From Aurelia coerulea (Eukaryota; Cnidaria; Scyphozoa; Semaeostomeae; Ulmaridae), in contig CM076943.1 in the NCBI GenBank assembly GCA_039566865.1, positions 43,470,663-43,534,662 on the forward strand: DNA of 64,000 nucleotides, in the 5' to 3' direction. Position numbers and translations under genes: made by a program. Below, one piece after another: positions 12,411 through 34,261 of this stretch. Position 1 is the first letter of the stretch. Each line of letters opens with the position of its first letter. The notes beneath the pieces were generated by a model, which was given only the letters and a program-made list of their open reading frames with translations, made no database searches and was not told the origin of the DNA.

Positions 12411-12945
12411 TCATTGGTAATTTGGGCAAGCATTATCCCATGCATCGTGGCCTCTATTCCCACAGGCTTGACAAAATCGGGTGGGACAATCACGGAATAA
12501 ATGCTCGGAGCTTTGACACGAACGGCATTTTCTAGGTTGTTGAGCTCTGTTGCCATAACCACGGTTACTTGGGCGCCTTGAAAACTGTCCTCTGCTCCTC
12601 TGCTTGCTTTGGTGTTTCTTTTATTCTGGAAGGGCCGGTAACCAGAATATGTTGCATTTCCTGTTTCGTTATTACCCCCGTCTTCACCTCCTGGAAAACT
12701 GACGGAGGATATTTTCATCTTTTCAATGACTTTTTCCGCTATTGTGTCAACCAAGGAAGGGCTGTCAACATTCATGCATTGTTGTGGATTATCTGCAGCA
12801 AAGGATCCAATACCTGCCAACTGCAATCTTGTTGTTTCCAGAGCCAATTTGCTGATATCCGCTTTGTCGAAGTCTTGCAATGCTTTCAATGCAATCTGCA
12901 TTTTTGGATGAACTCCGTATAATATATCAAAGACAGTCAAACCAA
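12407..12945 (-). pseudogene. Gypsy gag, N-terminally truncated and frameshifted
   Basis: The 177-residue frame starts in the middle of the capsid-like region (HPKMQIALKALQDFDKADIS, matching HPQMQTALK in the intact copy). It runs to about 12560, after which the sequence continues in another frame. That other frame encodes two CCHC zinc knuckles (CRSCQSSEHLFRDC and CQACGNRGHDAWDNAC) and ends in CAA-UGA-CUA. One frameshift in the basic linker explains the switch. Upstream gag and leader sequence are absent. Confidence 0.75.
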
Positions 12946-15900
12946 ACCAAATTTAATGAAGCTAAGACAATGATAGTTGCTACCTAATTCCTACCAATTG
13001 ATCGCTAAAATCTTTTGAAAAGATCATTTTTGACTCACGGTAGTGAAGTCATAGGGGTGGTGGGCATTTTCCTGTTTACAAAATCTTTTATGTCATGGGG
13101 TGAAGGACGTGATGAAGTCCACATCAAGCCTTGCAACAACGCGAGGTCAAAGCTTGTCGTTCAGCGGAGGCCCTCCTGAGGTGTATGACATCTTAAAGGT
13201 CAAACGCTCCAGCGGTTTGAGCACGCGCGGCCCTCTACGGAAAGAACGAATCATGGTCGCGGAGCCTGCACGCTCAAAATGCTGAATGAAAAACTGCATT
13301 CAACGAGCAAAGAAAGGTCCGTCTCTCATCTTTGATCAAGAAGTTTATCAACTTACTTTTTCGTAGCTGCTTAAAATCAATTTTCAATTCAAGCCTTGCA
13401 TTTTTTAACTTTCTGTGCATTTTATTTGAATCATAGCCGATTTTGCTTCAAAAGTAGGCCTAGATTTTTAATTTGTTCAGCAATAGTCTGAATTCAATGT
13501 TTTGTTCGGACTAGACCTCTAAGTTGACTTGTGCAAAGCACATTGATCTTGAGGTTTGCGCTAAATTGTGAATAATAAACTTCTGGAAAACAGAGGGACT
13601 GCAGCTGAGAACAGGCCAAGATTGGAAAATATAATGTGTGTGGCATGGCAGCCACCTTGCTCGCCTGTGTTTATGCATCATTTCACAGAATGAGATTGGT
13701 TGCTAAGGGAAACTTCTCCAACAAAATGAACTCTTTGAGTGCAGTAATTAGCTCAATGACGTTCCCATCAAAATTATTTCAAAAAGCTCTTTGTTAGCAT
13801 TTTTTCAAGATTATTGTTAGTTTTCTAAGAACTTTTAGGCAGCTGATCAGTCAAGTAGAACAAAAATCGAAGAGTTTTCAAGAAACCAATAAATTTCCCA
13901 CCCAGTACTGAAAGTCTCTTTTAGCTTTCAGTAAACAGTTGAAATTAGCAGATCATGGGTACCAAAGGTTTTTGCAGTTTCTCCGCATCCTTCTTAAATG
14001 TTCGTTGTATTCATTGATAGGTAACTTCCCAAGCATTTCGTGAGTTTTACCAGAATACAGCGCCAGTATGCGAATTACCTTCTCAGACAAAATAAACAAG
14101 TTTCTTGAGCAATATCCAAGTTCTCAGTCGAGGTTCTTACTGGTTTAGTTCTTAGTTGAATTCTTGAAAAGAGTTTCTTATTAACAATAGCACTGTTTAA
14201 TCATGCTGAAAACGGATTACACGTTTTTTTATAAGAAACTGGTTTATAAGAAACTAGTACTACGATGACCAAATATTTAGCAAACTCTAGTACTACGCTC
14301 AAGAACAGTTAAGAAACTCTAAAACTTTATATCTGTATGTCTCTCTTATTCTATGTCTCTCTAACAAAGGTGCCTTCGTCTTTTCTTGACTTTTAACTGC
14401 AAAATTGGTAAATTTGGCCTTGATGTGCATGGCTTCTTCTTGATGACAATGTCAATGCAAAATGGAAGCCCTTTCTCGAGAAGAAGGCTCAACTTCGAAC
14501 AATACCGCAATTTTAGGCCCAAAAAAATAAGAAACTAATTAAGAAACTTTTACTACTAAAACACCGAAATTTTCATGCGAAATTAAGAAACTTTTAGTAC
14601 TAAGTGCTGATCCAAGTCTCTTATAATAAAGAAAAACGTGTATTTCGTGATTAATTTGATTGCTTGTGTGTTTAATTAGATTGTTTGTTCTCCACTGAAA
14701 AATCTTCAAGCAAAGACTAAACATTTCCTGCACGCCAATTTTTGATGGTTGCTTCCTCAGACTGCATTCTGTAACGTAACATTACAGCATATTTACTCAT
14801 ATTTCGAGGAAGGTGCAATAAAATTGCACTGATCTTCCTTTGCATTCTCATGGCATAATTTGGAAAATTTCACAATAAAAATCATTAAGCCCGTGAGTCA
14901 CTTCTAAGGTCCTTTGATTTTAAATGTGCCTGCAGATAAAGTGCGTGCTTACGCACTTTGGCGATGCCTGTCCGGGATTTTGGGTCCACCCCAGACATAA
15001 GACCAAAAACTCTATAGTACCTCCGGGGAATAAAACTGACCAGGCAGAAAACACAAGAAAAATCGACACGAAGTTTAAACCAAACAAAACATACACACCA
15101 CTAAACTAAACTACGTCGAGAGTGTATCGAAATTAACCTCACTGTCCAAACTAAATACGAATGAATGTGAAAACAGCGATAATCAGCAATATTTAAAAGA
15201 GCTAAGTCTACAATCAATCAAACAATTAAACGGCATATGTCATGAAGCTGATTGGTTCATGCAATACAATTCTCTCTATTGTTTATTACAAAGCACAGGA
15301 TCGAGGCTGAATTTTCATTGCAACAAAAATTCATGAAACAGAAATGAAAAGTCTCGAAACAATGGAATTCCACTCCAAACTTGTTTGTTGTATTAACCAA
15401 TTGCTAATGTGACATATGTCCTTTAATCAACGAAATGTGTCGAGAAACTTCTTCGTTAGCAAGCTCCCGATGTTGTAAATAGTAGATTCACCGATAAAAA
15501 ACAACTTCTGATAATAAGTAAGAGGACTGTATAAATATGAACAAAATCAACGTGAATAAATGCAAAATGATACTGCTATTCTAAGAGCTAAAACTTAGAA
15601 CCTTGTAGGTTTCATGCATAGGACAACGACTAAGCATACGATCAATTCGAATGGGTTGAAATGTTTTAACTTACTTTCAAGCATATGTCTGACACAGATT
15701 CTTGCGTCTCTTCTGGCCCGTGGGCCTGTTGTCTGCCGGCCCCTAAGGTTGCAACCTCTATTTATATGGGTTCCTAATTCAAAGGGGCTAATTCTCCGAC
15801 CAAAATTGACCTAGTTTAGTTGTCAATTGTAAAGTGAACGTTTCCTAACGAGGCCGTAAAAATTCCGAAGATGAAAGCTTCTGGGTATGAACTTCGCCCA

Positions 15901-17157: not shown

Positions 17158-17344
17158 TTCAGGGCCAACTAACAGTTATTTTTGTTGATGCAGACTGGCT
17201 ACATTCATCATACTATACATGCAAGTACAGTCAGAAATTAGGCCCCCCAGTTACTGTAAAATTTATATCTGATTAACCAAAAGTGAGACGTAATTTGAGT
17301 TGACGATATTTTCGTAATTCCTCATTACATTTATATAGTATATA

Positions 17345-17961
17345 CCGGGTGACCCAGAAAAAAATGACCCAACGCAATCTGTTACAGAAAATTAACTGAG
17401 TGGCCTATTGAGATGCTTCAAACGTTGTTCTGTCGCTAAAAGACTAGCCTATGCCATGAGTATTTTTCGCAATTTTTTCGACACTTTAAATTTCCAAAAT
17501 TAAGGATTTTGAGGAAAAGAGCATACCTGAAATCCTCAAAAAGTCGTCAAAAACAGGGCATCGATTTACAGCCATTTCAAATCTTCAAAACAACGAGGAG
17601 CGTGTTTCATTTCAAACTGGGAATAGGTAACACAGTCGGAAGTCTTCAGAGCAAGTTTATAGTCCCTAGGTACTTGAAAATATTCTCAGGCAGAAAGAAA
17701 CACGCTCCTCGTTGTTTCGAAGATCTGAAATGGCTTCAAATCGATCCCTTGTTTTTGACGACTTTTTGAGAATTTCAAGCCTGCTCTTTCCCTCAAAATC
17801 CTTAATTCGGAAACCTTCCCGTGCCCAAAAAAATTGCAAAAAATACTCATAATGTAGGCTGGTCTTTTAGCGACAAAACAACGTTTGAAATATTTCAATC
17901 TGCCACTTACTTTTTTCTCTATAACAGATTGCGTTGGGTCACTTTTTTCTGGGTCACCCGG
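17345..17961. mobile_element. TA-flanked fold-back MITE, CCGGGTGACCCAG ends
   Basis: Inverted arms of roughly 280 bp begin CCGGGTGACCCAGAAAAAA and are bounded by TA on both sides (17343-17344 and 17962-17963), as in the Tc1/mariner group. The two arms contain matching long frames in opposite orientation; these are shadows of the palindrome and not genes. Confidence 0.65.
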
Positions 17962-18115
17962 TAGAAAGGAGCTTATGATTTATCGACCCAGTACAGCAGC
18001 ACTGTTTTAGTACTCCAAAACCCAATCGAGTAATTGTAGTAATTACTTTAAAGACAGTTGACTGTATTTTATGTATTTAATATTAATATTCACTCGTAAA
18101 ATGCAGTCAACGGTC

Positions 18116-18871
18116 CACTGTGAGCCAGCAAATGTAAGAAAAGGCAAAATGTCAAGAAAAATTTAATTGTAGGAAATCCTCTTTGTTACTATTTTTCCAA
18201 TACAATATACATTGAATATTGAAACAAAACAAATCTGAGCTCAATCGGACTTCTAAGTCCAGAGAAATTCTATTTCAAAGTTGTACCAAATAAACCATCG
18301 CTAAAACAACGGCTGCAACTATGTAACAACTCCTTACCGGATGTTAATAAATTTTGCAATATCTCCGTCTAGAGTTGTCCAATTTCAAAAAACTTTTTTT
18401 TATTTTGAAGAGCATCGTATTGACTTCCAATTGGGAGGAACAGCCAACTTTTTCATGATTAATTTGTAAGAAATTTATTATGACTTCTTATACTCGTTTG
18501 TTCTCCGGAAATAGCCACTTAAGATATGTAAATTTCACAACTATAGTTGAAAATCTAAAAAATAAGTAAAAGTAAGTCTACCGGCACACGCTTTCCATCA
18601 AGTACCATGTTTGAGTAAGTCATGTACAAAGGGAATCGTGTAAGATCGTACAGGGGGAAAACTTATGGAAATTTGAAGATACTGACTTCTTTGCTTCTCA
18701 TTTCGAAAAATTTCCTCATTTTGCACCTTCCCACGTAATTATCCTAAAAACATGACCTTGCTATTAGCGATGAAGCACCCAATGGTTCAAGCATTTTTAT
18801 GATGTGATTTTTCATAATAAAAAACTGAATGGTCTCAATTGCTCCTGTGCAGGGGCTATCTTCCAGACTAA
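18116..18871 (+). repeat. left terminal inverted repeat of Transib
   Basis: It pairs with 28838-29607. The outer tip is CACTGTG, then 12 bases, then TAAGAAAAGG. The arms match closely to about 18871 (landmarks: tgtaggaaatcctctttg, ttaccggatgttaat, ctgaatggtctcaattgctc). Differences look like scattered substitutions plus one 9-bp length difference near the tip. Confidence 0.85.
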
Positions 18872-19225
18872 GAATCTTAAATCTAATCATCTCAAACACG
18901 CAAATCTTTAAAGTATTGAGTTGCTATTTGATCTCGAACTTCTAAAGTATGACGGAGGTCCTTCTCCCTCAGTTGGGAAATAAGCATTACTCCTTGACTC
19001 TTGCCTTCATTCTACTGAACAGTTGCCTCAAAGAACAATAAGTATATCTTTTCAGGGAAGGCTATGTTGTAGCATATTGTAAATTTCTTCTAACCACCAT
19101 TTTCTTTTTATCAACTCATGTACATTCCATGGCAACTGTTTCCTTATTCTTTTCGCCATCATGTTATCATATCTTCCAAAAGCCAGGATTGATGATACAG
19201 CTTGTTATATTGAACGTGTAGTGAT

Positions 19226-21175
19226 GTGATATTCAACCCTTTATTGGAAATGTCTCTCGAAATTACGAATGGTGAAGTTTTGGATTTCATTTTAAGTAAT
19301 GGTAACTTACAAGACAGAACTGTGAAGATAACAAAAAAATTTCGACAGTTAGCATCTCTCTTTATAAAGAAGTATCATCTCGCTGCCAGCTTAAGTTCCA
19401 TTCAAGTAACTCTAAAGGCAATCTACGATGTCAAAACCAAGGACGATGCTTGGCGAAATACTGCGAGAATGTTTGAAAAGGAGAATTTTGAGCCCAAATC
19501 AAAGCTCGGCCGACCGCCACTGAGTTTATTGGATAGTCCTTGCGAGAGAGTGGAGAGAAAGATTTTGAAAGATAATCTGTCTCTTGTGGCTACAGTAGCA
19601 GCTGAGCATGGGGAAACAAAGGAAGAGATGTTGAAAAAAATGGTCGAAGAAGCAATACGATCCAGAGAGTGGGACATGACAACTTTCTTTGATTCGTTTA
19701 ATCTGTCCCCTGAAATTCCTATCCACGAGCTTACTGCTCTGTTTCACATTGCCAATCTATCCCAGAGGCAGTACCAGTTATGCAGAAATTTGTTGACAAA
19801 GTATGGTATTAAGTCTTTTGCCCCTCGCAATGACATTGATGCTTACAAGAAAACGTTATTTCCTGGTGTCAAAATTGAAAACCTGTCTGCTTCTGTAGTC
19901 CCTGAGGATCTCTTCTATTCAACACTAAGTGACATCATTGACTGTGAATCCTTGCATGAAAAAATTGCAGCGTTTCCAGACGATACCGTCATCAAATTCG
20001 AAGTTAAAGCCGGTCTCGACGGTTCAGGATCTCACATGAAACGTCATCAGTTATCCGGTGACGGTGAAGATGATTCGATGCTAGGAAGCGCTGATAATTT
20101 TTTGGGAGTGTTCATGACACCCATGTCCATATCGGTCAATTCTCAAACTGGTCCTGTTGTTTTGTGGCAAAATCCAACACCGAATTCCATCTTCTTGACA
20201 AGGCCCATTCATCTTTTCAAAGCCAAGGAATCAAGAAGTTTCACTGAAAGCATTTTCCCTGAACTTCAAGCATCTCTTGATGTTCTTGCATACCCTCGTG
20301 ACGTCAATGGTATTTCCAAACAAGTTTCCATTGATACCAAATTCACGATGATTGATGGAAAGATGCTAGATATCCTCCAAGGGGACTCTGGTGCTTTTTG
20401 TCACTATTGTGACATTAAGAGAGCAGATGCTAGCAATTTCCAGGTGATATCTGCATCTGGAGCTGGTGGAATGCCCATCAACAAGACGATCGAGGAGTGC
20501 TATGAGAGATGGGAACTTGTTGAGAGTGGTGAAATTACACATAGTAATCGATTAAGAGCTGACCAGTGTCACAAGCCACTCTTAACACAGTCTGGTTGTT
20601 TGTTTGCGATACTACACCAGGCATTGCGCTCCTTGGATTTCGTTTTGAAAGTTCTTTACCATTTAGTGGCAGGGCACAAAATTTGGAGTGAAGCAGATCC
20701 CAGGGTGAAGGCTGATGTTGCTGCTAGTAAGGCCAAAGTGATCAGCTATATCAAGGCAAACTGTGGTGGTCTGCTGGTAGATTCTCCTACCACAGTAGGT
20801 GGCAACACTAATACTGGTCCAGTATCGCAACGCTTCTTTGCTTGGTTTAACAGAGAAGCAATCTGCAGTCTCATCGATGATGCAGTTGATCGAGAAAATT
20901 TGAACATTCTTCTCGGTCAGTTTATTACATCTTTGTCTGTCGCTGAGAGTGTTGATGTTACTAAAGTTGTTGATGTCCGCAGAATCAAGATGCATTGTCA
21001 TGAAACCATGATTCACATCACGCTCCATTTCCCATGGGTGAAAATTAGCCCATCAGTTCACCAGATGCTTGCCCATAACTGGGAACTTTTTGAGATGCAA
21101 AATGGCGGCCCAATTGCAATCTGGTCTGAGAGTGCTCTCGAATCATGGAACAAATGCAGGGATACACCCCCGTGA
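19226..21175 (+). CDS. Transib/RAG1-core-like transposase, 5' part, split by Gypsy
   Basis: This is a DDE transposase of the Transib/RAG1 superfamily, expected to bind the element's ends and cut them by hairpin chemistry. In the 643 genuine residues I see a first Asp at 265 (AGLDGSGSHMKRH) and VLWQNPTPN at 312-320. The second Asp is at 377 (FTMIDGKM), followed by a CHYC zinc pair at 392/395. The HQMLAH pair is at 612/617, and the Glu at 635 lies in WSESALESWNK. Order and spacing match RAG1 D600, D708, C727/C730, H937/H942 and E962 (family knowledge). The true coding part stops at 21154; the last few residues of the open frame are LTR sequence. It resumes at 28388. The start may instead be the Met at 19250. 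No internal stop is seen. Confidence 0.85.
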   Translation: MIFNPLLEMSLEITNGEVLDFILSNGNLQDRTVKITKKFRQLASLFIKKYHLAASLSSIQVTLKAIYDVKTKDDAWRNTARMFEKENFEPKSKLGRPPLSLLDSPCERVERKILKDNLSLVATVAAEHGETKEEMLKKMVEEAIRSREWDMTTFFDSFNLSPEIPIHELTALFHIANLSQRQYQLCRNLLTKYGIKSFAPRNDIDAYKKTLFPGVKIENLSASVVPEDLFYSTLSDIIDCESLHEKIAAFPDDTVIKFEVKAGLDGSGSHMKRHQLSGDGEDDSMLGSADNFLGVFMTPMSISVNSQTGPVVLWQNPTPNSIFLTRPIHLFKAKESRSFTESIFPELQASLDVLAYPRDVNGISKQVSIDTKFTMIDGKMLDILQGDSGAFCHYCDIKRADASNFQVISASGAGGMPINKTIEECYERWELVESGEITHSNRLRADQCHKPLLTQSGCLFAILHQALRSLDFVLKVLYHLVAGHKIWSEADPRVKADVAASKAKVISYIKANCGGLLVDSPTTVGGNTNTGPVSQRFFAWFNREAICSLIDDAVDRENLNILLGQFITSLSVAESVDVTKVVDVRRIKMHCHETMIHITLHFPWVKISPSVHQMLAHNWELFEMQNGGPIAIWSESALESWNKCRDTPP

Positions 21176-21305
21176 CTGGACAGTTGTAGATTAGATAATG
21201 TTTACTTATATTCCGCTGTGCTGTATGTTTCGTTATTCTGTAATAGATCTTCTCTCTGAGTAGGCCACAAGAAGTATTCTCTCTCGAGTCTCGACTACGG
21301 CTACA
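21155..21305 (+). repeat. 5' LTR of the plus-strand Gypsy
   Basis: It starts TGCAGGG (TGTAGGG in the 3' copy) and ends GGCTACA. A TATA-like cttatatt lies at 21205-21212. The sequence ATTCTGTAATAGA at 21235-21247, about 28 bp further on, would be near the start of the transcript. Confidence 0.9.
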
Positions 21306-21307
21306 TT

Positions 21308-21320
21308 TCTATTACAGAAT
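21308..21320 (+). promoter_or_regulatory. candidate self-priming primer-binding site
   Basis: TCTATTACAGAAT begins two bases after the 5' LTR. It is the exact 13-base reverse complement of LTR positions 21235-21247, where the mRNA is predicted to start. No TGG-initial tRNA-complementary site is seen here. This arrangement is known from Tf1-type elements, whose mRNA 5' end primes its own reverse transcription. Confidence 0.6.
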
Positions 21321-21324
21321 CAAA

Positions 21325-22251
21325 ATGGAAAGCAAAATTAAAGTGTTTAACGGAGAAGGAAATGTGAAAGAATTTATCGTTAAGGTCGAGCTACACTCAT
21401 CTCTAAAAGGGTATACCGAAGAGAAATGTGCACAGGATTTGGCAAGCAGATTAGATGGGCCTGCTTTCGATGTCTATACGAGACTGTCTACAGAGGATAA
21501 GAAAAAAGTGGACAAAATAAAAGAAGAGCTCCTGAAAGAATTTGAAAAAGGCCAGTTGAATCGAGAGGAAGCAATGTTTGAACTTTCAAACCGCCCTAGA
21601 AAACATGGCGAATCTGCGCATACCTACGCATACAAGTTGCTCGAATTGGTGAAGCTAGCATACCCAACCTTCAACGACGAAACTCGTGCGACGTTAGCAA
21701 AAGATTATTTCGTCCGTGGTTTGCATCCACAAATGCAAACAGCCCTCAAATCTATGGAGAAGTTTTCAACAAGTGACATCAAAGCCCTGGCTTCTGAAAC
21801 AACACGACTTCAATTGGCGGGAGTTAAGTCCAATATCGAAATTCGTACTTTAGTTAATGAGATTAGTGACAACGCGAACAACAGTTCAAAAGAAATTCCA
21901 GCCAACATTGTTGACGCAATTGCTGATAAAGTCCTTGTCAAAATAAATTCTATCAACGTTGGTTCCGGGGGTCACGAGAATCTTGAAAATGATGTAAGTT
22001 TCACAACAAAGCCATCCTTTGTTGGCCAAAGAACATTTGCCGGCAGAAATTTCAGAGGTCGTGGTCAAGGTCACCAGCCTCGAAGAAGAGGAAATTTTCG
22101 CGGCGGCTACAGAGCCCCTACCAACCAGCTGAAATGCAGATCATGCCAAAGCACCGACCACTTAGTTGCAAGTTGTCCAACAAGATTTTGCCAAGCATGT
22201 GGCCAACGAGGTCATGACAGCTGGAATGATGTGTGTCCAAAATGCCAATGA
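21325..22251 (+). CDS. Gypsy gag polyprotein
   Basis: This is the structural protein of the retrotransposon particle, 308 residues long. The N-terminal part (KVFNGEGNVKEFI, ASRLDGPAFDVY, DYFVRGLHPQMQ) is a capsid-like helical region typical of metazoan Gypsy gag. A basic Arg/Gly-rich stretch follows at about 235-265. Two CCHC zinc knuckles end it at 271-284 (CRSCQSTDHLVASC) and 289-304 (CQACGQRGHDSWNDVC). The Met at 21325 follows the LTR and primer site by about 20 bases and is the obvious start. The stop is UGA followed by CUA, and the same frame continues open into protease, which suggests programmed readthrough. Confidence 0.9.
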   Translation: MESKIKVFNGEGNVKEFIVKVELHSSLKGYTEEKCAQDLASRLDGPAFDVYTRLSTEDKKKVDKIKEELLKEFEKGQLNREEAMFELSNRPRKHGESAHTYAYKLLELVKLAYPTFNDETRATLAKDYFVRGLHPQMQTALKSMEKFSTSDIKALASETTRLQLAGVKSNIEIRTLVNEISDNANNSSKEIPANIVDAIADKVLVKINSINVGSGGHENLENDVSFTTKPSFVGQRTFAGRNFRGRGQGHQPRRRGNFRGGYRAPTNQLKCRSCQSTDHLVASCPTRFCQACGQRGHDSWNDVCPKCQ

Positions 22252-22254
22252 CTA
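22249..22254 (+). promoter_or_regulatory. UGA-CUA leaky stop between gag and pol
   Basis: The gag stop codon is UGA followed by CUA. After it the same frame stays open through the protease motif at 22342. UGA CUA is a known efficient readthrough context in eukaryotic and viral mRNAs. The minus-strand relative has the same CAA UGA CUA at 12408-12416, also in frame with its pol. Confidence 0.6.
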
Positions 22255-22636
22255 ACCGCCTCCACAGGAGCAAGCCCCTCCGAGGATCCCTGTACCGTTG
22301 TTGTTGCTGCAAAACTCCAAAAGCTGGATACTCACGTAATAATGGACACTGGTTCGGGATGCTCAATAATTGATTTAGGAACATTACAAAGAATACGCCT
22401 CGATAATTGTATTGATAAACGCTCCCCAAAATCATTGATAAACGCTTCCGGGGACACCATGAACATATTGGGGTCTGTCAAGATTGATGTAACGATTGCT
22501 GGAAGCCAGCCTCGTAATCATGTTTTCCAAGTACTGGATTCATTGACGTATTCAAACGTATTACTTGGCAGAGATTTTATGCGCCTCTTTGGTTCTGTCC
22601 AGTTTGATTTTGCCAGAAACAGAATCCAGTTAGGAA
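22252..22636 (+). pseudogene. Gypsy protease (pol 5' part), split by hAT
   Basis: The frame continues from the gag stop. The aspartic protease active site is IMDTGSGCSIIDLG at about 22342, and a flap-like ASGDTMNILG segment and SNVLLGRDFM follow. Translation into RNRIQLG is cut off at 22636 by the hAT insertion. The same frame resumes at 24896 because insert plus duplication is 2259 bp, a multiple of three. The C-terminal residues of the apparent 173-residue frame past 22636 are hAT sequence. Confidence 0.8.
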
Positions 22637-24887
22637 CAGTGGCGAAGCTGGGCGAAAATGGTAGGTCATGCTCTGGGCGGAAGGCGAATAGAAGAAGCTC
22701 CTTGCGCCGGAGGCGGAAACGGTGCAGAAAGTATCTTGTGCCACGCCCATTTTTCTGCCTGGGAACGCCCATTGTTGTAAAAAGGCTTGAACAATGCCAT
22801 TTCTGTAGAGATATAAAATACACCTATAAATTCATGAAAAATTCTTATTTTCAAACACTTTAGGCCAAGAATTGTTCCCAAAATTTTCTTGTTTCAAATC
22901 AGGCATATCAGCAGTAAAACATTTGTTTATCACTAATCTGGCAGGCATGTGTTAGGGTTTCAGATGTCATACAATCATTTCTGTTGAGCAGTTGCCATTT
23001 TTTAATCCTCAATGAAAAGATCATTGACTGAAACTCAAGTCCCAGATCACAGGAATATCTTTTTAAGCAGAAGGGAGAAGGGAAGCAGAAAAAGCAAAGT
23101 TCTCTTGGAAAGCTCATTTGGTTGGTAACACATATGCTGATAATAACCTGGTGGGGGGTTATTCTTATATAAATAGGGTAAGGGTGCTCTGGCTGTGGTA
23201 CAAAATATCAACCAAAAAAAATTTCTAGCATCAAAATGGACCCACAAGATAACTTTTCTTAGCCTACATAGCCAAAACTATTTATTCTTTGTCATCAACA
23301 ATATATGGAAAATGCCCTGAACTGATAGATTTCATGTAATGTATATATTTAAATGTTCGCGTATTTTGATAATGCTGCTTGACTTTGATTTTGTTTGTAA
23401 ATTCATTTTTATATTCTATTCAATTTTTCTCAGTTTGAGACCCAGAAAATAATCCAGAAGTTCAGGGAACTCATAGAAATTCTTGTACAAATGACAAACC
23501 CAAAAATATTATTTTTTTGTCAAAGTTTTAGACCCAAAGAGTAACCTGAGCACCCCCCCCCCCCCTTCCTAACCAAAGCAAAGTACCTTGGAGATAATTA
23601 TTATGCAGAGAGAAAATTATCTTGCAAAAGTTCCTTTGTCAGCAACAAATTATGATAATACTGCAAGAACAGGACAATTTTCTTCGAAGGTAAGTCTAAA
23701 ATACTAGGCTTGTCTATGAATATGGCGAGAACACTTGCGCATATTTTTTTATGAGAAACTAAGAATTTTGCTCGGTACTGAAAGTTTCTTAAAAATATCA
23801 GATTTTCAGTACTCAGAGTTTCTTATGAGTTTCTTACAGGTTCTATAACAATCTTCATGGTCACTGCCTATGCCCTTATGAACATTTCAAAACGATGTTT
23901 TTGTAAGCTTTCCAATGTTTAGACATTGCTCAAGTACTTTTCGAGTAATATGATATAGGAAACGAGTGAAAAAACTGTAAAATATGTTAGGCACATCCTT
24001 TATCAAAATAAATAGTTTCTTAATCATTTATTTTCACAGTACTGGAATTTCCCCCACAGCCTACCTTTCTACCTTCCTTCATTTACCACGAGACTTCTTG
24101 GAATATCTTGGGACACTGTCCTTCCTCTTCAGAACAAGCTTTGCTTTGCAGTTGGCGTTTAGTTATTGGCCTAGGCCTACGATCACATACCCTCCCTTTC
24201 TGGCTTCTGCTAGCCTGAAGCTGCACAAGATTTTCTTGAGAACTAGGCTGCACAATGTCTCCCTCGATAAAGAAGGACTTCCAGTGAATCTTTGCATTCC
24301 ACAATAATCAAAATTCAAATAATAATCCTCCAACTAGACGTGTATGTAGGGGCACTGACACTTCATCTTGAACGGAGCCTAGGCCAGTCAATCTCACAAA
24401 ACAAAGTTTATATCGTCATCATTTCCATTGTTTCAATGCGTATCCTGCTTTTGAACTTCCGCAGGACCTTATGTCGAAAACTGGCGCAATGGGCATGCGT
24501 TAGATCAGCTTCAGCCAATCAATTCATTGCTAGGTTTATGATTATAATGACCCATCTCCTGCGATTTCAGATCGGCAAGACATAACATAGGGAACCAGTA
24601 CGGAAAACAGTGAAATTTGACCATAACTACACAGTGTAGCTACAACATTAGTATAGAAACCCTATGATAGGTCTGGCGCTCCGAATCGAGCACGAGTTAA
24701 CACAGGGGACCAAGGTATCGACAGGTCAAGATACAAAGGGTAAAATTTGTTGTACTATGACATATGTTGTGATTTTAAAGAAAGTTTTTCAAAGAAATAT
24801 TTTTTCTGGTGAAAAAATATTCATGATATCTCTGAAAATTGTTGGTCATGCTGAGCATGAGCAGCATGATCGCTAGATTCGCCACTG
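22637..24887. mobile_element. non-autonomous hAT-type element
   Basis: It begins CAGTGGCGAA and ends TTCGCCACTG, with 8-bp direct repeats GTTAGGAA at 22629-22636 and 24888-24895, the hAT pattern. At 2251 bp it holds no recognisable transposase. The interior has aagaaact-type repeats near 23750-23840, a poly-C run near 23556-23567, and short frames near 24000-24300 that I do not recognise. It interrupts the Gypsy protease-RT coding sequence. Confidence 0.85.
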
Positions 24888-24895
24888 GTTAGGAA

Positions 24896-26739
24896 AACTC
24901 TCAGTGTCCGGATTATCATCGAACACAGCAAGAGTGCGATTAAGCGAAAGTGTTACCATTCCTCCCCGCTCAGAATCGGTTGTTTTAGTAAAATCCTCCA
25001 CGAAAAATTCTCTGTTACCAGGTGATTTTGAACCCAAAATTGGACCAAAGATACGGGGCCTGTACGCTACAAGGTCCCGCGTGATACCGAACATGGATGG
25101 AATATTTCAAATAACAGTCCTCAATGTTACTTCATCAGACATTTCATTGAAATCGCGAACCTCGATGGGTTTTATCCAACCAGCCGATGAAATAGTTATG
25201 AGCGTTGCACCTGATGAAAGCCTCAATTCAACCCTTGCGGACATCACAATCGGTGACAGACTATCATGTGACGAAAAGTCAGAAGTAACCAGATTGATCG
25301 AACAATATAAGGATGTTTTCGCTGCCAATCCTAAAAAGCCCAAGCAAACAATGCTGCTAGAACATCGAATAATCACCGACGACGCCCTCCCTGTGAGTCA
25401 TAAACCCCGTAGGATACCCGTTGCATGGGAGAAGGATATGGATAAACAGGTCGCTGAAATGCTATCAAATGACATTATTCGCCCTTCATCATCCCCTTGG
25501 AATGCCCCAGTGATACTGGTGAAGAAGAAGGACAACAGTACGCGTTTCGTTTGCGATTTCCGAGGAGTTAATGATGTAACAAAAAGAGACACGTATCCCT
25601 TGCCCCATATTAAAGACGTAATTGACAAGATGGCCGGAGCAAAATACTGGACGACGTTAGATGCTGCCTCAGCATACTGGTCGATCCCTCTCGCAGAGAC
25701 TGACAAGGAAAAGCCAGCATTTTCTGTGCCCCACGGCAAATACGAATTTAACGTTACGCCATATGGCCTATCGAACGCTGGTTCTTCCTACCAAAGGATG
25801 ATAGACATGTGTTTATCTGGTCTCTCAACTGAAAGAGTTTTAGCGTACATGGATGACATTGGAATTTTTAACTCAACATTCCAGGAACATATTCAAGATC
25901 TTACAGCAGTCTTTGAGCGATTGCGACTTGCGAATGTGACTCTCAAAGCCTCAAAGTGCGTATTTGCATCGGAATCAGTCGATTTTTTGGGATATGAGCT
26001 TTCATGTCAAGGTATTAAGCCACAGCAACGTTTGACCACCGCTATTGATCAATTTCCTCCACCGGCATCAAGAAAAGAATTAAAGCGTTTTTTAGGGCTG
26101 TCAGGCTTTTATCGGAGCTTTATTCAGGACTACGCAGTGATCAGTGAGCCCCTTAACAAACTTACCTGTGACAATGTGCAATTCTTGTGGACCAGTCAAT
26201 GTGAATCTGCTTTCAAGGAGCTGAAACAACGATTAACATCACAACCAGTGCTGGCATTTCCAAAGCTCAATAAACCATTTACAGTCGAAGTTGATGCAAG
26301 TGATTACGCTGCAGGTGGTGTGTTATCGCAAAGCGGAGAAAATGGCCTTTTGCACCCTGTTGCTTATTTCTCGACAGCTTTTAAAGGTTCTCAACGTCAA
26401 TGGGCACCAATAACAAAAGAAGCATTTGCTCTCGTCTTAGCTGTGAGACACTGGCATGTATATTTAGCGGGTACCGAATTTATCCTGAACACGGACCATA
26501 ATCCACTCGTACATCTTCGTAAACAAAAAGACCCAAGAGGAAAATTCGGGAGGTGGATCTCCGAACTTGAAGAGTATGACTATACGGTCAGATATATCCG
26601 TGGAAAGGACAATGTCAAAGCCGATTTCCTCTCTCGAGATCGATGCGCAAATCCTGATCAACCGATTTCATCATTTGAGGACAAGGTTTATGCTACGGTT
26701 GTAGAGAACGCTACGTTTTTGGATCAATTAAAGCAATAG
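24896..26739 (+). CDS. Gypsy reverse transcriptase and RNase H region
   Basis: This is the pol segment downstream of the hAT insertion, 611 residues from the first start-like codon at 24904. It carries the protease-RT linker, then RT with RRIPVAWEKDMDKQV, NAPVILVKKKDNSTRFVCD and TLDAASAYW (catalytic Asp). The YMDD box is at about 315-318 (LAYMDDIGIF). The connection LGLSGFYRSF follows, then RNase H with VDASDYAAGG, TKEAFALVLAVRHW and NTDHNPL. The protein would act in the particle to copy the RNA. It ends at UAG 26737-26739. The integrase lies in the same frame just after, and the minus-strand relative has a sense codon here, so this stop is a lesion in this copy. Confidence 0.9.
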
Positions 26740-28221
26740 AAAGGTACAGACCCCGTGATCAGCAGAGCAAAACGACTTATAGCAGCGGGAGAAGTAATTT
26801 TACAAGGTCGATTTAAACGAGTTCAAAACCAGCTCCGAGTGGAAGATGACATCTTAACCAAGTCTGGTCGACCAATCGTCCCCGCATCATTACGAAAGTT
26901 TGTATTGACTGAAATACATAACGTAGCACATTTTGGGACAGACAAAACGTATTCTCTCCTGAAAGAGCGTTTCTTTTGGCCGAGCATGTATGGACACGTC
27001 AAGCGTTTTGTTACCTCTTGCATTCACTGCCAACAGACAAAATGCGACACGTCACCACCTAAGGCGCCCTTACTTCCGATGGTGATCCCAGATGCTCCGA
27101 TGCAGTTCATTGCACTTGACGTATCGTATATGCCACGGAACAATAAAGGATTCGAGTACTTTCTGATTATCGGCGATCTATTCTCCAAATACATTGAAGC
27201 AGTGCCGATGAAGGACCAGACCGCACCAACAATAGTAAATGCTTTGATGAACCATTGGATCTACATCCATGGCACCCCACACTTTATTCTTAGCGATCAA
27301 GGCTCAAATGTCGATGGAGATACAGTCAAAGAAATCTGTAATACGCTAGGTATCGAAAAGCGACGGTCGTCCGCTTACCATTCTCAAGGCAATGGATTCG
27401 CAGAGCGCAATATTCGCAATGTCAAGGATATGTTACGAACAGTACTATTACAAAGGAAATTGAATCAGTCAAATTGGGCCTCATTGCTACCAGAGTTGGT
27501 GTTCGCATTGAACACGAGTGAGAGTAAAGCAACCAAATGCATCCCGTTTAAGGTTGTTTTTGGCAGAGACGCTCGTTTACCAATTGATGTCTTGTTTGAT
27601 CATGATCGACTCGATTGCCCCAAAGACACAAACACCGCTGCAGAATATGCCGACGATCGTAATTTTGCTTTAAAGGATGTGTATGATACGGTTATCACTA
27701 ACTTGCAACTCAGCAAAGAAAAGATGCAAGCCCATTACAACAAAAACATCCGTTTCATCGACCACAAAACCGGAGATAAGGTATGGCTGAAAGTAAAGTA
27801 TTATAAAACTGGCGAGAATAGAAAACTCGCACCTCGTCGTCGGGGACCATGGACAGTCAGCAAGAAATTGCCGAATGGCGTTAACTTCGAAATTGTGAAT
27901 GACCAAACAAAGGAAACGAAAATAGTCCACCACGATCGGTTGTCACCTGTAAAGGAAGGAGCAGTAGAGGACGTTGAAGCTCCAGATATCACAATTAAGC
28001 GAAAGACGATCGTTAAAGAACGCACGCCCGATAACTCCTATGCACCCGAGTCAACAGACAGCGAAAGTAGCGATAGTGACGATAGCGATGACTATAGCCC
28101 TGATACGGACGACGATAACCAAAACAGAGAACACGAAGTCCAGCATAGACAATATCCCTTGAGAAACAGGAGAGCGCGCCAAATTCCAAATAACATTCCG
28201 TGGTCTGCGATTCATATATAG
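26740..28221 (+). CDS. Gypsy integrase
   Basis: This is the integrase of the same pol frame, 488 residues from the first Val/Met-like codon at 26755. It has an HHCC zinc domain (IHNVAHFGTDKTY, then CIHCQQTKC). The DDE triad is Asp122 (ALDVSY), Asp181 (LSDQGSN) and Glu217 (GFAERN), which gives the classic D,35,E spacing. A C-terminal LAPRRRGPWTVSKKLPNGVNF segment precedes an acidic Ser/Asp-rich tail that ends in a basic stretch (YPLRNRRARQIP). No chromodomain is evident. The stop is followed directly by the purine tract and 3' LTR. It appears intact in isolation. Confidence 0.9.
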   Translation, partial: KGTDPVISRAKRLIAAGEVILQGRFKRVQNQLRVEDDILTKSGRPIVPASLRKFVLTEIHNVAHFGTDKTYSLLKERFFWPSMYGHVKRFVTSCIHCQQTKCDTSPPKAPLLPMVIPDAPMQFIALDVSYMPRNNKGFEYFLIIGDLFSKYIEAVPMKDQTAPTIVNALMNHWIYIHGTPHFILSDQGSNVDGDTVKEICNTLGIEKRRSSAYHSQGNGFAERNIRNVKDMLRTVLLQRKLNQSNWASLLPELVFALNTSESKATKCIPFKVVFGRDARLPIDVLFDHDRLDCPKDTNTAAEYADDRNFALKDVYDTVITNLQLSKEKMQAHYNKNIRFIDHKTGDKVWLKVKYYKTGENRKLAPRRRGPWTVSKKLPNGVNFEIVNDQTKETKIVHHDRLSPVKEGAVEDVEAPDITIKRKTIVKERTPDNSYAPESTDSESSDSDDSDDYSPDTDDDNQNREHEVQHRQYPLRNRRARQIPNNIPWSAIHI

Positions 28222-28232
28222 GAGGGGGGAAA
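28222..28232 (+). promoter_or_regulatory. polypurine tract
   Basis: gaggggggaaa lies immediately before the 3' LTR (starts 28233) and is the usual plus-strand primer site. Confidence 0.8.
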
Positions 28233-28383
28233 TGTAGGGATACACCCCCGTGACTGGACAGTTGTAGATTAGATTATGTTTACTTATATTCCGCTGTGCT
28301 GTATGTCTCGTTATTCTGTAATAGATCTTCTCTCTGAGTAGGCCACAAGAAGTATTCTCTCTCGAGTCTCGACTACGGCTACA
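28233..28383 (+). repeat. 3' LTR of the plus-strand Gypsy
   Basis: It starts TGTAGGGATA and ends GGCTACA. It is identical to the 5' LTR except at three positions. It is followed by CAAA, the target duplication. Confidence 0.9.
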
Positions 28384-28387
28384 CAAA

Positions 28388-28600
28388 CACATAAGAAATT
28401 TCCGCAGTGGTGCTGGTTGCAGGGCAAGGCAGACATCAGTAAGACATAACATCCATGACATTTTCGTGCGCATGCTCATTACCTCGGCTCCTGTAATTGC
28501 ATCAGTCAGAAGAAACCTTTTGGTTAAGCGACAGCAGTCTTCTTTTGCTGGATATGTTCCCAATCAGGAGGAAGTCATTATCAATGAAATGTACTTGTAG
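28388..28600 (+). pseudogene. Transib transposase, 3' part after the Gypsy insertion
   Basis: After one copy of the CAAA duplication the transposase frame resumes and stays open for 70 codons to UAG at 28598-28600. The first residues (HIRNFRSGAG) directly continue the WNK of the upstream part, giving the WNK-xxRxFR arrangement seen after the catalytic Glu in RAG1 (GNKLFRRFR). The later IFVRMLITSAPVIASVRR segment matches the closing helix of Transib proteins. The full protein would be about 713 residues, normal for the family. The only visible lesion in the gene is the Gypsy insertion. Confidence 0.8.
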
Positions 28601-28837
28601 AGTAGCAATTTGGTGACAGAAACAACATACTTTGTTCTTAAGATTAGTGAAGAGAGATGCTATTTTCTCTGTTGCGAGTTGGTTATTTTTGTTCAATCCA
28701 AAATCATATGGTAGGTAATAGGAATGACTATCAAGGATATGCATGACTTTAGAAAATGAAACAATTCGTTAGCAAGATCGTCACATTTTGCGATTTCCTT
28801 TATCTACGGAAATCAGTGGCTGCTTCCAAAAAATTAA

Positions 28838-29607
28838 TTCTTAGTCAGGAAGATAGCCCCTGCGCAGGAGCAATTGAGACCATTCAGTTTTTTATTATTA
28901 AAAAAATCACATCATAAAAATGCTTGAACCATTGGGTGCTTCATCGCTAATAGCAAGGTCATGTTTTTAGGATAATTACGTGGGAAGGTGCAAAATGAGG
29001 AAATTTTTCGAAATGAGAAGCAAAGAAGTCAGTATCTTCAAATTTCCATAAGTTTTCCCCCTGTACGATCTTACACGATTCCCTTTGTACATGACTTACT
29101 CAAACATGGTACTTGATGGAAAGCGTGTGCCGGTAGACTTACTTTTACTTATTTTTTAGATTTTCAACTATAGTTGTGAAATTTACATATCTTAAGTGGC
29201 TATTTCCGGAGAACAAACGAGTATAAGAAGTCATAATAAATTTCTTACAAATTAATCATGAAAAAGTTGGCTGTTCCTCCCAATTGGAAGTCAATACGAT
29301 GCTCTTCAAAATAAAAAAAAGTTTTTTGAAATTGGACAACTCTAGACGGAGATATTGCAAAATTTATTAACATCCGGTAAGGAGTTGTTACATAGTTGCA
29401 GCCGTTGTTTTAGCGATGGTTTATTTGGTACAACTTTGAAATAGAATTTCTTTGGACTTAGAAGTCCGATTGAGCTCAGATTTGTTTTGTTTCAATATTC
29501 AATGTGTATTGTATTGGAAAAATAGTAACAAAGAGGATTTCCTACAATTAAATTTTTCTTGACATTTTGCCTTTTCTTACATAATTTTGGCATTCTGGAT
29601 CACTGTG
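28838..29607 (-). repeat. right terminal inverted repeat of Transib
   Basis: It is the reverse complement of 18116-18871. Read inward from 29607 it begins CACAGTG, a perfect RSS heptamer, then 21 bases, then TAAGAAAAGG. Confidence 0.85.
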
Positions 29608-29778
29608 CGGTCTCTAAAGTGAATACCTTCCAAACCAACTAAATGTGTCCTCTCTAACAAGGTGTGTACTTTACAGAGAGAATCTTAGCTAACATTTGTC
29701 AATAGGGATGCAAAAATAATTCCTTTCTTAACAGTTTGCCCATGATATAATGGTGTCGCTTAGAGACAGTTGACTGCA

Positions 29779-30695
29779 GTGCAATACTTAAAAACTATTC
29801 GTGATATATTATGAAATCAACAAAATATTATACAATCAGGCAGGAGACCTGGCTCTTGCTAGGGGGAGGGGGGAGGTGGGGAAGTTGCATAGGAAACATA
29901 ATAGGAATGGAAACGAAAAGGGGTATACTTCATGTTGTTTTTATGGAACCACCAAGAAATTTTAGGAGAATTTCCTTATCAAACCAATTCTAAATGTTTT
30001 CAACCTAACTGTTGCACGGATGGATGGTCGTATCCTCGGCTGAGTTGGACCAAAGATAGAGACTTGATCTACACCTAAGTTTGTCTCTTCCATAGACTAA
30101 ATGCTCCATTCACTGATGGTTGCATTCCTGAGGAAATGTAGGTACTTTTGAAAACTCACGACTTGCTGCTATCATTTGCATTTTTGCTCTATTGTTAAAA
30201 GTAATAACGACTTTTTTACATTACTTATAGGATTGATAATAAAATCTTGAAATATCAAATTTTGACTGAGAGCCCGTTTACACGGAAACGAATCCATTTT
30301 GATTTCCAACATTTTCAAGGCTAAGGAAAATGCCTCACATAAACAAAATAATGAATCTAGCAGTAATTTGCACACTTTAACTGCATATTTCAAAGCCAAC
30401 CAGTTTTAAAAGCATTCATATCTGCCAGTTTGGTCCTATTGAAAAGGTAATAATCACATTTAAACATAATTGGTGCCTGCTGTAGGCCAAATGGGAAAAT
30501 TGAAGATTGATCTCGTTATCAAATTTTGATTTGTGAAACGTTCCTATTTTTATTGGCACATCCCGTAACTGGTGATTCTATCATGAATTACTGACCAGAA
30601 TAATGCAGCCTGCCCCGCAGAAACCGTAAAAACGAGTTTCAGTGCAACCTATTTGGTTATTTTGTCAGTCTCTGTTATTGTAGGCCACTTTGTAA
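29779..30695. other. gene-free stretch
   Basis: No gene is recognisable on either strand. A short G-rich run lies near 29860-29880. Confidence 0.5.
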
Positions 30696-30697
30696 TA

Positions 30698-31010
30698 CCG
30701 GGTGTCCCAAAAAAATGTATACAGATTTGGTTGACTCCAGCGATGTGAATTTAGCTTTAATCCATGGCTAACTACTCTCAAAATGTTCCTCGATAGTTAA
30801 CTTGAACATAGATACCTTGTTTGTTGGTATTAGTGCTTTAAGAGCAGAAATATCAATCTTGAAAGCTCAAATTTGCGTCTACTTGCAAACCAGAGCTTTG
30901 ACCTTTGGCCTCAGCAAATTCTTGAACCACATCGAAATTAAGATCTGAAATTAGTGAAACATTAAGAAACATCTTAATAAGTGACTGGGGGGGGGGGAGG
31001 AGGTGACTTC
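30698..31010. repeat. one-ended MITE fragment, CCGGGTGTCCCA end
   Basis: TA CCGGGTGTCCCAAAAAAA begins at 30696. The following 300 bases resemble those after 62111 and 63228 in the 1116-bp tandem repeat. The opposite end is missing, and the copy fades out before the Gypsy LTR at 31036. Confidence 0.5.
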
Positions 31011-31035: not shown

Positions 31036-31175
31036 TGTAACATTATTAGCCTCGCTTGGGTGTTCTGTTGGGCATGCACCCTTGTTGTTGTTGGTTTGGA
31101 GCACGAGACTGAGAAAATGGAGAACTTATGAAATGAAACTTGTTTGTTTATATTTACTTGCTGGAAACCTTTACA
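31036..31175 (+). repeat. 5' LTR, K02A2.6-type Gypsy
   Basis: It begins TGTAACATTATTAGCC and ends CCTTTACA. Length is 140 bp. It is followed at once by TGGTGTCAGG, a tRNA-type primer-binding site at 31176. Confidence 0.9.
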
Positions 31176-31213
31176 TGGTGTCAGGTGAAACACCCATCTT
31201 TGATGTGTAGCAA

Positions 31214-34200
31214 GTGGAAGATTGCCTTGCTGATCTTTGTTTATGTTCAAGCTGTACAGCGTCTCGACTTACAGTAGTGATGACAAGTCCAGATCAAAAT
31301 GTTTCTGGGCCCAGTGCTTCTCCTGAAGGAAATGGAGCAACATCTTCGTTTATATCTAACGTGCCATTACCCCCAAGATTACATTTAGGAGGCAATTTAT
31401 CAGAGAATTGGAAACAGTGGAAACAAATATATGATGCCTATGAAACCGTTACGAATTTGAAGTCTAAACCTGATAATTTTCGAGTTGCTGCTTTCATCAC
31501 CTGTATAGGACCGGAAGCTCTCAGTATACACAATTCACTTCCGTACGAGGATGAGGGTGAACGTCAAAACATTGAGAGAATTTTTGAATTATGGAATACT
31601 TACTGCATTGGTGAAACAAATGTAATTTACGAACGCTATAAATTCAATAATCGTAATCAAGAACCTACAGAATCAATTGAAACTTATGCTGCTTCTTTAC
31701 GTGCCCTCGCAGCAACTTGTGCGTTTGGAGCTCTTAATGATGAGCTGATACGTGACCGAATTGTTTGTGGAATTCATAATAATGCTGTGCGACGTAAGCT
31801 GCTGCAGGAACCAAAATTATCATTATCTAGATGCATCGATTTATGCAGGGCAACAGAAACAACTACCGCTCAAGTAAAAGCAATGGCAGGCCAAGCTGAT
31901 AATCATGATCTTATGGCAAATTATGTTAGGAAACAAAACATCCCAAGAAGAGCCACTGGAGACACCAGAGCTTTTATATCAGATTGCAAATTTTGTGGAC
32001 GTAGCCATAGAAAAAACAAAGATTATTGCCCAGCCTATGGTAAATTTTGTTCTGGTTGTGGTAAGAGAAACCATTTTGTTGAAAAATGCAGCGTGCAGAA
32101 CTCACCAGGTAAGAGAGATACATTTTCTAAAGCCAAGATACATGCAGTGAAAGAAGAAACCACTTCTAGTGATGAAGAAATTCTTATTGTTGAAATTTCA
32201 TCCCAAAACAATTTGGAAATCAATGCTGTGTCCCACTTTCCTCCTAAGAATAAAATCTTTGCCTCTATGATTATACAAGGCAGGCAAATTTCCTTCCAAC
32301 TTGACTCAGGTGCTACCTGTAATGTTCTTCCAGAACATTTTGTTCCTTCAGGCACAATTGTTGAAAAATCTGATCACTCTTTGCGCCTGTACAGTAAAGC
32401 TCTTTTACCCATAAATGGCATTTGTAAGCTTAAGGTAGTAAACCCCAAGACCCAGACTGAGTACACGGTCAGATTTATTATTGTGAAAGGGGATTATGTA
32501 CCATTATCAGGAGCTAATGCTGCGCAAAAGATGGGCCTATTGACTGTAAATTATGATAATATTTTTCATTCAAATATAGACAATTTTAGCTCTAATAGCA
32601 TTGCTTCACACAGCCCATGTCAACAAGCACAACAACATGCTGTCCCAGAAACAGTTTTGTCAGCCACCGCAGATGCTCCACTCAGTGCAGCAGATATAGA
32701 GAACCACTTTGGATCTGTCTTTGAAGGACTTGGTCATATGCCCGGCAAGTTGCACTTAGACGTTGATGAATCACAAACCCCTGTTGTCATGCCACCCCGC
32801 AGAGTCCCCATCGCTCTCAAAGCAAAGCTCAAGGCTGAGTTGGAAAGGTTGGAAGATCTTCATGTCATTCAGAAAGTTACAGGCCCAACAGATTGGGTAT
32901 CAAACCTTGTCATTGCAGAAAAGCCAAATGGGAAACTGAGGTTATGCATCGATCCACAACACCTCAACAAAGCACTGAAACGAAGCCATTACCCTTTACC
33001 GCTCATTGACGACGTGTTGCCAGAGCTAGAAGATGTCAAGGTATTCAGCAAAATTGACCTGAAGGAAGGGTATCTTCAAATAGAGCTCGATGACGAATCA
33101 AGCATGCTTACAACGTTCCAAACACCATGGGGGCGTTGGAGGTACCTCAGGATGCCCTTTGGGATAAAACCAGCCTCAGAGCATTTCCAGCACAGATTTG
33201 ATCAGTGCATTGAAGGCCTATCTGGCGTATATGCAGTCGCTGATGATGCACTCATTACCGGAAGAGGGGAAACATACGAAGAAGCTGTTAAAAACCATGA
33301 TGAGAACATGCTAGCACTTTTGAAACGATGCCAAGAAAAGAACATCAAGCTGAACAAAGACAAATTCAAGTTTAAATGCAATGAAGTTTCCTTCATTGGT
33401 CACACCCTAACACAGAACGGTCTGAAGATAGACCCCGCCAAAGTGGAAGCCATCACAAAGATGGACAAACCTCAAGATGTTGCAGGCGTACAAAGGTTCA
33501 TTGGCATGGTAAAGTACCTGGCCAAGTTTCTCCCCAGACTGTCAGAAGTATGCGAACTTCTGAGAAGTTTGACCCACAAAGATACACCATGGGTATGGGG
33601 AAAAGCTCACGAAAAAGCATTCACAGACATACAAAAAGCAATATGCGAGGCACCAGTTCTAAAGTATTTTGACCATACAGTAGCAACAGAAGGCCAAGGT
33701 GACGCATCATCGAAGGGGCTTGGTTTTGTGCTCATGCAAGAGGGGCGTCCAGTCTCCTATGCAAGCAGAGCACTCACCCCTGCAGAGCAAAATTACAGCC
33801 AAATAGAGAAAGAGCTGCTTGCACAAGTATTTGGAGTAGAACATCATCATACCTACGTATATGGCAGAGAGATCACACTTTGGACAGATCACAAACCACT
33901 TGTCTCAATCATCAGCAAGCCACTCGCATCTGCTCCAAAGAGACTGCAAAGACTATTGTTAAGATTGCAGTCCTACGATGTTAAAATCTGCTATAAACCT
34001 GGCAAAGAAATGGTTCTAGCAGATACACTCTCTCGAGCATACCTACCGACAAGTGAGAGACAGAAGTCAGAAACTGAAGAAGAAGTCGAAACTATCCATA
34101 TGATAAATCATCTCCCAATATCTGAGCCACAGCTGAAAGAAATCCAAAGAGAAACCAGATGTGACAATACTTTGCAATCACTGAAGGCAACGATTTTGAA

Positions 34201-34261
34201 TGGATGGCCAGAAAGCAAAGAGACCCTCCCTCAATGCATTCATCCATACTTCTCAGTTTGA
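31214..34261 (+). CDS. gag-pol polyprotein (gag, protease, RT, RNase H)
   Basis: This is a 1015-residue fused polyprotein. The gag region (about 50-250) carries LGGNLSENWKQWKQIYDAYE, typical of K02A2.6-like Gypsy elements. Two zinc knuckles span 258-292 (CKFCGRSHRKNKDYC, then CSGCGKRNHFVEKC). Protease is at about 345-445 with LDSGATCNVLP (Asp364). RT covers about 545-735, with IDLKEGYLQ and a variant catalytic box VADDAL (677-678) instead of Y-x-DD. RNase H is at about 820-935 (GDASSKGLG, SQIEKELLA, WTDHKPL). The start could also be the Met at residue 23 (MTSPDQN). The frame ends in UGA at 34259-34261, and the integrase continues in the same frame, so this stop is probably a lesion. Confidence 0.9.
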   Translation: MEDCLADLCLCSSCTASRLTVVMTSPDQNVSGPSASPEGNGATSSFISNVPLPPRLHLGGNLSENWKQWKQIYDAYETVTNLKSKPDNFRVAAFITCIGPEALSIHNSLPYEDEGERQNIERIFELWNTYCIGETNVIYERYKFNNRNQEPTESIETYAASLRALAATCAFGALNDELIRDRIVCGIHNNAVRRKLLQEPKLSLSRCIDLCRATETTTAQVKAMAGQADNHDLMANYVRKQNIPRRATGDTRAFISDCKFCGRSHRKNKDYCPAYGKFCSGCGKRNHFVEKCSVQNSPGKRDTFSKAKIHAVKEETTSSDEEILIVEISSQNNLEINAVSHFPPKNKIFASMIIQGRQISFQLDSGATCNVLPEHFVPSGTIVEKSDHSLRLYSKALLPINGICKLKVVNPKTQTEYTVRFIIVKGDYVPLSGANAAQKMGLLTVNYDNIFHSNIDNFSSNSIASHSPCQQAQQHAVPETVLSATADAPLSAADIENHFGSVFEGLGHMPGKLHLDVDESQTPVVMPPRRVPIALKAKLKAELERLEDLHVIQKVTGPTDWVSNLVIAEKPNGKLRLCIDPQHLNKALKRSHYPLPLIDDVLPELEDVKVFSKIDLKEGYLQIELDDESSMLTTFQTPWGRWRYLRMPFGIKPASEHFQHRFDQCIEGLSGVYAVADDALITGRGETYEEAVKNHDENMLALLKRCQEKNIKLNKDKFKFKCNEVSFIGHTLTQNGLKIDPAKVEAITKMDKPQDVAGVQRFIGMVKYLAKFLPRLSEVCELLRSLTHKDTPWVWGKAHEKAFTDIQKAICEAPVLKYFDHTVATEGQGDASSKGLGFVLMQEGRPVSYASRALTPAEQNYSQIEKELLAQVFGVEHHHTYVYGREITLWTDHKPLVSIISKPLASAPKRLQRLLLRLQSYDVKICYKPGKEMVLADTLSRAYLPTSERQKSETEEEVETIHMINHLPISEPQLKEIQRETRCDNTLQSLKATILNGWPESKETLPQCIHPYFSV

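Follow-up and report, generated by a model that had tools for sequence, protein, structure and literature searches.

We analyzed a 64-kb window of the Aurelia coerulea genome (contig CM076943.1, positions 43,470,663 to 43,534,662 of the forward strand; positions below are those of the window) and found a Transib-type transposon on its plus strand at 18116-29607, delimited by its tips, its target-site duplication (TSD), its terminal inverted repeats (TIRs), and its empty site. The element presents 11,492 bp, and about 4.26 kb when the Gypsy-type retrotransposon inserted in it is subtracted. With high confidence, we assign it to the Transib superfamily of cut-and-paste DNA transposons, as a copy that entered a short palindrome and was broken by the Gypsy insertion, from a lineage that has the alpha11-alpha12 segment and lacks the CTT1 tail. 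The ends, the duplication, the empty site, the catalytic and zinc residues, and the lack of a second gene are observed; the fold is a prediction for a relative with 90% identity. An initial annotation of this DNA had already proposed a transposon of the Transib/RAG1 superfamily with a full catalytic set and a 5-bp duplication, and our results confirmed it.

Transibs of Subgroup I have a CTT1 tail, ends that are asymmetric, and an alpha11-alpha12 region that corresponds to the part of RAG1 where RAG2 binds (PMC9435367). Those of Subgroup II, the HzTransib type, have lost alpha11-alpha12, carry CTT2, and have symmetric or asymmetric ends (PMC9435367). In the window, the segment equivalent to alpha11-alpha12, from CxxC to the next LH, is at 20411-20611 (plus strand) and has 67 residues aligned with RAG1: the Subgroup I trait is present and the loss typical of Subgroup II is not observed. 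Among the 35 rows of our tree, this stretch has 27-29 residues in three HzTransib-type rows (HzTransib, P0023, and P0025) and 57-73 in 30 rows. The length for the window row comes from the alignment (the pattern gave 42, through a chance TH match), and the 3jbw RAG1 row is outside this measure, since its sequence piece ends there. The trait amounts to one change on the tree.

The CTT1 motif is Cx2Cx3GHx4C (PMC7204232), and the tails of 11 relatives contained it or a near form. It was exact in P0031, P0032, P0035, and P0036, had a GHx6H ending in P0018, P0020, and P0027-P0030, and had lost the final ligand in P0034. It was absent from the C-terminal piece in the window and from all eight of the nearest relatives with complete tails (P0001, P0002, P0003, P0006, P0007, P0010, P0011, and P0041; of these, P0011 and P0041 were outside the tree). 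P0015, P0016, and P0019 also lacked it. This count left out truncated or garbled tails (e.g., P0014, P0033, P0037, and P0039) and those missed by the pattern. The P0024-type tails have a CxxC, with a near-full CTT1 motif in P0056 only, of the seven in the tree.

The window lineage is therefore a mosaic of traits that matches neither published subgroup: it combines the segment of Subgroup I with ends that are asymmetric in this copy, and it lacks the Subgroup I tail. The literature that we searched included no paper pairing a Transib with long TIRs or with an octocoral and, on those searches alone, the mosaic is undescribed. The initial annotation got the superfamily, the catalytic set, the tips, and the TSD right; it missed the asymmetric spacers, the alpha11-alpha12 segment, the absent CTT1, and a third nested element. 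The mosaic matters because PMC9435367 ties these traits together: Transibs with the RAG2-binding segment also have CTT1, and CTT2 was suggested to be an adaptation to the segment loss. A lineage with the segment but without the CTT1 motif implies that the traits are separable, which makes it possible to test in what order they were lost between Transib and RAG.

At the boundaries, the plus strand reads CACTGTG at both 18116-18122 and 29601-29607; read inward, the left heptamer (plus strand) is CACTGTG and the right one (minus strand) is CACAGTG. The right one equals the consensus heptamer of the recombination signal sequence (RSS; PMC8289069), as the initial annotation had stated in calling it a perfect V(D)J heptamer, and the left one differs from it by one base. 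Thus, both tips start with CAC and are RSS-heptamer-like, as expected for the Transib superfamily. They are flanked by CGGTC at 18111-18115 and 29608-29612, a 5-bp GC-rich duplication as in the superfamily, known here from one copy and its empty site. The coordinates previously given for the element were exact, and the CGGTC duplications noted on both sides were confirmed. The window holds 13 CACNGTG sites and, when pairs less than 20 kb apart were tested, only this pair had identical outer 5-mers.

The target is an imperfect palindrome, with its left arm and most of its right arm at 18039-18115 and the rest of the right arm, in the empty site, at 29613-29626. When the flanks were fused over a single CGGTC, the palindrome across the junction was regained, with a score of 53 vs. 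37 for the occupied site. As a control, we placed 1000 random window pieces after the junction, and one matched or exceeded the score of 53 (mean 39.0, best 55). The left flank through CGGTC lies in the palindrome and joining restores it, which supports the insertion, both of its edges, and the length of the duplication (5 bp) independently of any sister copy. Scans of viral and prokaryote contig collections gave no further copies, which has little weight given those collections.

The TIRs, at 18116-18875 (plus strand) and 28837-29607 (minus strand), are about 760 bp long and 99.06% identical over 746 aligned columns. The left one consists of a 13-bp tip block CACTGTGAGCCAG, a 3-bp spacer, and an arm starting with ATGTAAGAAAAGGC, and the right one of a 13-bp tip block CACAGTGATCCAG, a 12-bp spacer, and the arm ATGTAAGAAAAGGC. 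Thus, this copy has the asymmetric TIRs (3/12 bp) of Subgroup I, also present in part of Subgroup II. This asymmetry could be non-functional if the left end had lost 9 bp after insertion, which we regard as unlikely. The copy is single and dead. In addition, the arms are less similar in their inner 68-nt stretch (96% alike) than in the ungapped core of 681 nt, and homogenisation may thus simply not reach either edge. However, the tip blocks also differ by two substitutions in 13 bp, against two mismatches in the 681 nt of the core (Fisher p 0.0019). This density speaks for a difference between the tips that goes beyond the gap and beyond random decay, with the less alike inner edge as a counterpoint. 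Besides, asymmetric ends are reported for every Subgroup I Transib and for part of Subgroup II (PMC9435367).

Inward of each heptamer there is a nonamer-like box, AGAAAAGGC, after 14 bp on the left and 23 bp on the right, whereas the V(D)J RSS spacers are 12 and 23 bp. The box matches the RSS nonamer ACAAAAACC at 6 of 9 positions, a match whose frequency in A-rich DNA is compatible with chance, and we lean towards chance as the explanation. In the TIR, matches of at least 6/9 take up 2.4% of positions on one strand and 1.1% on the other, and in the window 1.8%; by our own arithmetic, about 6-14% of tries would then place one at the right end with a spacer of 12 or 23 (±1). The left spacer of 14 also falls outside 12±1. 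On the other hand, the right spacer is exactly 23 bp, AGAAAAGGC is the top score among spacers 8-29 at each end, and the protein retains a GRP motif resembling that of the nonamer-binding domain.

The transposase frame is open at 19250-21154 (plus strand, codons 1-635, Met at 19250) and resumes beyond the Gypsy at 28385-28600 (plus strand) with 71 aa and a stop. This C-terminal piece, which lacks the CTT1 zinc motif, is 83% identical to the C-terminus of P0001. The gene is thus open apart from the Gypsy insertion, as previously annotated, and this copy is unable to make a full-length enzyme. D257 (20018-20020), D369 (20354-20356), C384, C387, H604, H609, and E631 (21140-21142) all fall in the corresponding RAG1/HzTransib alignment columns. 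They had been listed as Asp265, Asp377, Cys392/395, His612/617, and Glu635: the columns match RAG1, but the numbers were 8 too high, and 4 too high for the Glu. A RAG1-like DDE triad with ZnC2/ZnH2 residues is therefore present, within an RNase H fold in the predicted model of the relative P0001. With the Gypsy and hAT-like parts set aside, no sizeable open reading frame (ORF) for a second gene (RAG2L) was found in 18116-19249 or 28601-29607, and on this ground we rejected a RAG-like (RAGL) transposon with RAG2L. ORFs of 106 and 129 aa run antisense to the transposase, outside the search for a second gene.

Three protein searches, with about 8000 candidates scored in each, returned 25, 36, and 14 proteins, 58 of them distinct. 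The nearest unbroken relative, P0001 (708 aa), stands for 14 clustered sequences and shares 90% identity with the whole N-terminal piece. It is therefore probable that this genome, or a close one, contains unbroken copies, as the initial annotation had guessed. The tree has 35 rows: the window protein, 30 relatives chosen from the 58, and four references from the PDB, with no Subgroup I reference among them. The window protein belongs to an 8-row lineage (support 100/100) nested in a 22-row clade (100/99). This clade joins the three HzTransib-type proteins (97/91), apart from the P0024-type clade and from RAG1/ProtoRAG, whose rows form a separate branch (100/100). The grouping with the HzTransib type was kept after removing the alpha11-alpha12 columns (95/94). 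The initial annotation had proposed a tree as a check, in which a protein outside the Transib/RAG1 superfamily would speak against it; in ours the protein falls inside. Membership of the superfamily is firmly supported, and the exact branching within it weakly.

Among the relatives, P0024 and P0047-P0059 make up a distinct RAG1/Transib-like group, on short contigs and with full-length members of about 770-800 aa. P0024 is above the Pfam RAG1 cut-off, and in all seven P0024-type rows of the tree the alpha11-alpha12 segment is present and the tail contains CxxC. A precomputed PF26100 tag is attached to many of the relatives; the Pfam scan returned PF26100 for none of eight relatives, five of them tagged.

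Several results weigh against our interpretation. The ends, the duplication length, and the asymmetry are known from one copy (n=1), and the nonamer-like box is a 6/9 match and no better. A Pfam scan of the transposase piece gave no match at E<=10. At the position following the second catalytic Asp, where Gly is usual, P0001 has Arg, so the activity of the nearest unbroken relative is not assured. The tree tool flagged long branches meeting, and approximately unbiased (AU) tests rejected neither joining the clade to RAG (p 0.081) nor joining it to the P0024-type clade (p 0.065).

The same AU result (p 0.081) leaves room for a decayed RAGL transposon of the ProtoRAG type that lost its RAG2-like gene, as does the retained alpha11-alpha12 segment, which binds RAG2 in RAG1 (PMC9435367). 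We consider this origin very improbable: the element has neither a second gene nor much space for one, it has no CCGHC tail, and the tree joins the window protein to the HzTransib type (97/91, and 95/94 without the columns of the trait). Moreover, the segment is also found in the other lineages compared, so it is better read as ancestral. We also considered a closer kinship to RAG1 than to HzTransib, as the shared segment might suggest. However, among the lineages compared only the HzTransib type lacks the segment, and such a kinship has no support in the best tree, whether or not the columns of the segment are included, though the AU test did not reject it.

As a Transib, the element would move by a single transposase binding both ends. 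The enzyme would introduce a nick where each CAC heptamer begins on its 5′ side, the flanks would become hairpins, and the freed 3′ ends would be joined to a GC-rich target with a 5-bp stagger, giving the CGGTC duplication. The nick-hairpin chemistry and the pairing of the ends are inferred by homology with HzTransib and RAG. In RAGL enzymes, CTT1 touches bases beside the heptamer, with an auxiliary role for the nonamer-binding domain; in vertebrate RAG, the enzyme depends on this domain and on unequal spacers (PMC7204232). By analogy, a lineage without CTT1 and with a GRP motif and unequal spacers might work more like RAG. Taken further, it may have solved end recognition as vertebrate RAG does, with a bipartite signal, asymmetric by roughly one turn (heptamer, 14- or 23-bp spacer, and A-rich box), read by a GRP-type domain under a 12/23-like rule, without RAG2 and with CTT1 lost; we offer this as a speculation that is probably wrong. 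With unbroken relatives, one would have an enzyme that works without RAG2, on natural ends that may be asymmetric and similar to RSSs, in which to ask whether unequal-spacer pairing predates RAG2.

Compared with known systems, HzTransib (Subgroup II type) has no alpha11-alpha12, with 28 residues in the stretch vs. 67 here, and its TIRs are symmetric (PMC8289069) rather than asymmetric as in this copy. Identity between HzTransib and the window lineage is 18-21% in fold alignments. With Subgroup I Transibs (PMC9435367) the window lineage shares the alpha11-alpha12 segment, the asymmetric ends, the GRP motif of the nonamer-binding domain, and the lack of RAG2L, but they are described with a CTT1 zinc tail and it has none. 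AanRAGL and ProtoRAG share the 5-bp TSD, the CAC tips, and the asymmetric ends. The ends of algal AanRAGL have a 13-bp element, spacers of 4/13 bp, and a 10-bp element (PMC9435367). The corresponding values for the window element are a 13-bp block and spacers of 3/12 bp, and in both cases the spacers differ by 9. RAGL elements have RAG2L and a CCGHC tail, neither of which is in the window element. Regarding the 5-bp duplications, a GC bias is reported for ProtoRAG, Transib, and RAG, and most Transib families have symmetric ends (PMC8289069).

RSS-like heptamers and unequal spacers are shared with Transib5 (Drosophila) and with Transib2 and N1-N3 (Anopheles) (PMC8355894). That source lists 12/23-asymmetric Transibs, with spacers of 12 or 23 ± 1, and some Transib heptamers and nonamers identical to those of canonical RSSs; here, the spacers are 14/23 and the nonamer matches at 6/9. 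Since both features were previously listed there, an RSS-like heptamer on a Transib is already known and is not news alone, and the novelty attributed to it by the initial annotation was overstated.

The insertion that broke the gene is a Gypsy-type long terminal repeat (LTR) retrotransposon at 21155-28383 (plus strand), with LTRs of 151 bp each at 21155-21305 and 28233-28383 (3 differences) and the TSD CAAA at 21151-21154 and 28384-28387. Its domains are those of a reverse transcriptase, an RNase H, and an integrase, and a zinc knuckle gives a weak match under the Pfam cut-off. Inside it, at 22637-24887, lies a 2,251-bp element with inverted tips CAGTGGCGAA(G/T)CT (13 nt) and an 8-bp TSD GTTAGGAA at 22629-22636 and 24888-24895, which we take to be hAT-like by TSD length and tips. 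The nest has three levels, and the order of insertion is Transib, then Gypsy, then hAT-like.

No tRNA and no Rfam match at gathering score were found in the window, and its longer ORFs are those of retroelements. A 620-bp foldback with arms 79-86% complementary lies a short way to the left of the element (17343-17963). At the right end of the window, two direct repeats of about 1.55 kb (61331-62884 and 62447-64000) are 95% identical and overlap with a shift of about 1.1 kb, and part of them also matches 30691-30934. Inverted repeats of 577 bp, 97.4% identical and about 840 bp apart (49659-50235 and 51073-51649), are perhaps a foldback or TIR element. A second Gypsy-type pol is at 8841-12952 (minus strand), with 65% DNA identity to the nested Gypsy over 2.6 kb. 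An LTR element at 31211-35519 (plus strand) is accompanied by repeats of 140 bp (97.9%) at 31036-31175 and 35596-35735. At 52931-55816 (minus strand), an open frame of 961 codons contains a reverse transcriptase of the non-LTR type.

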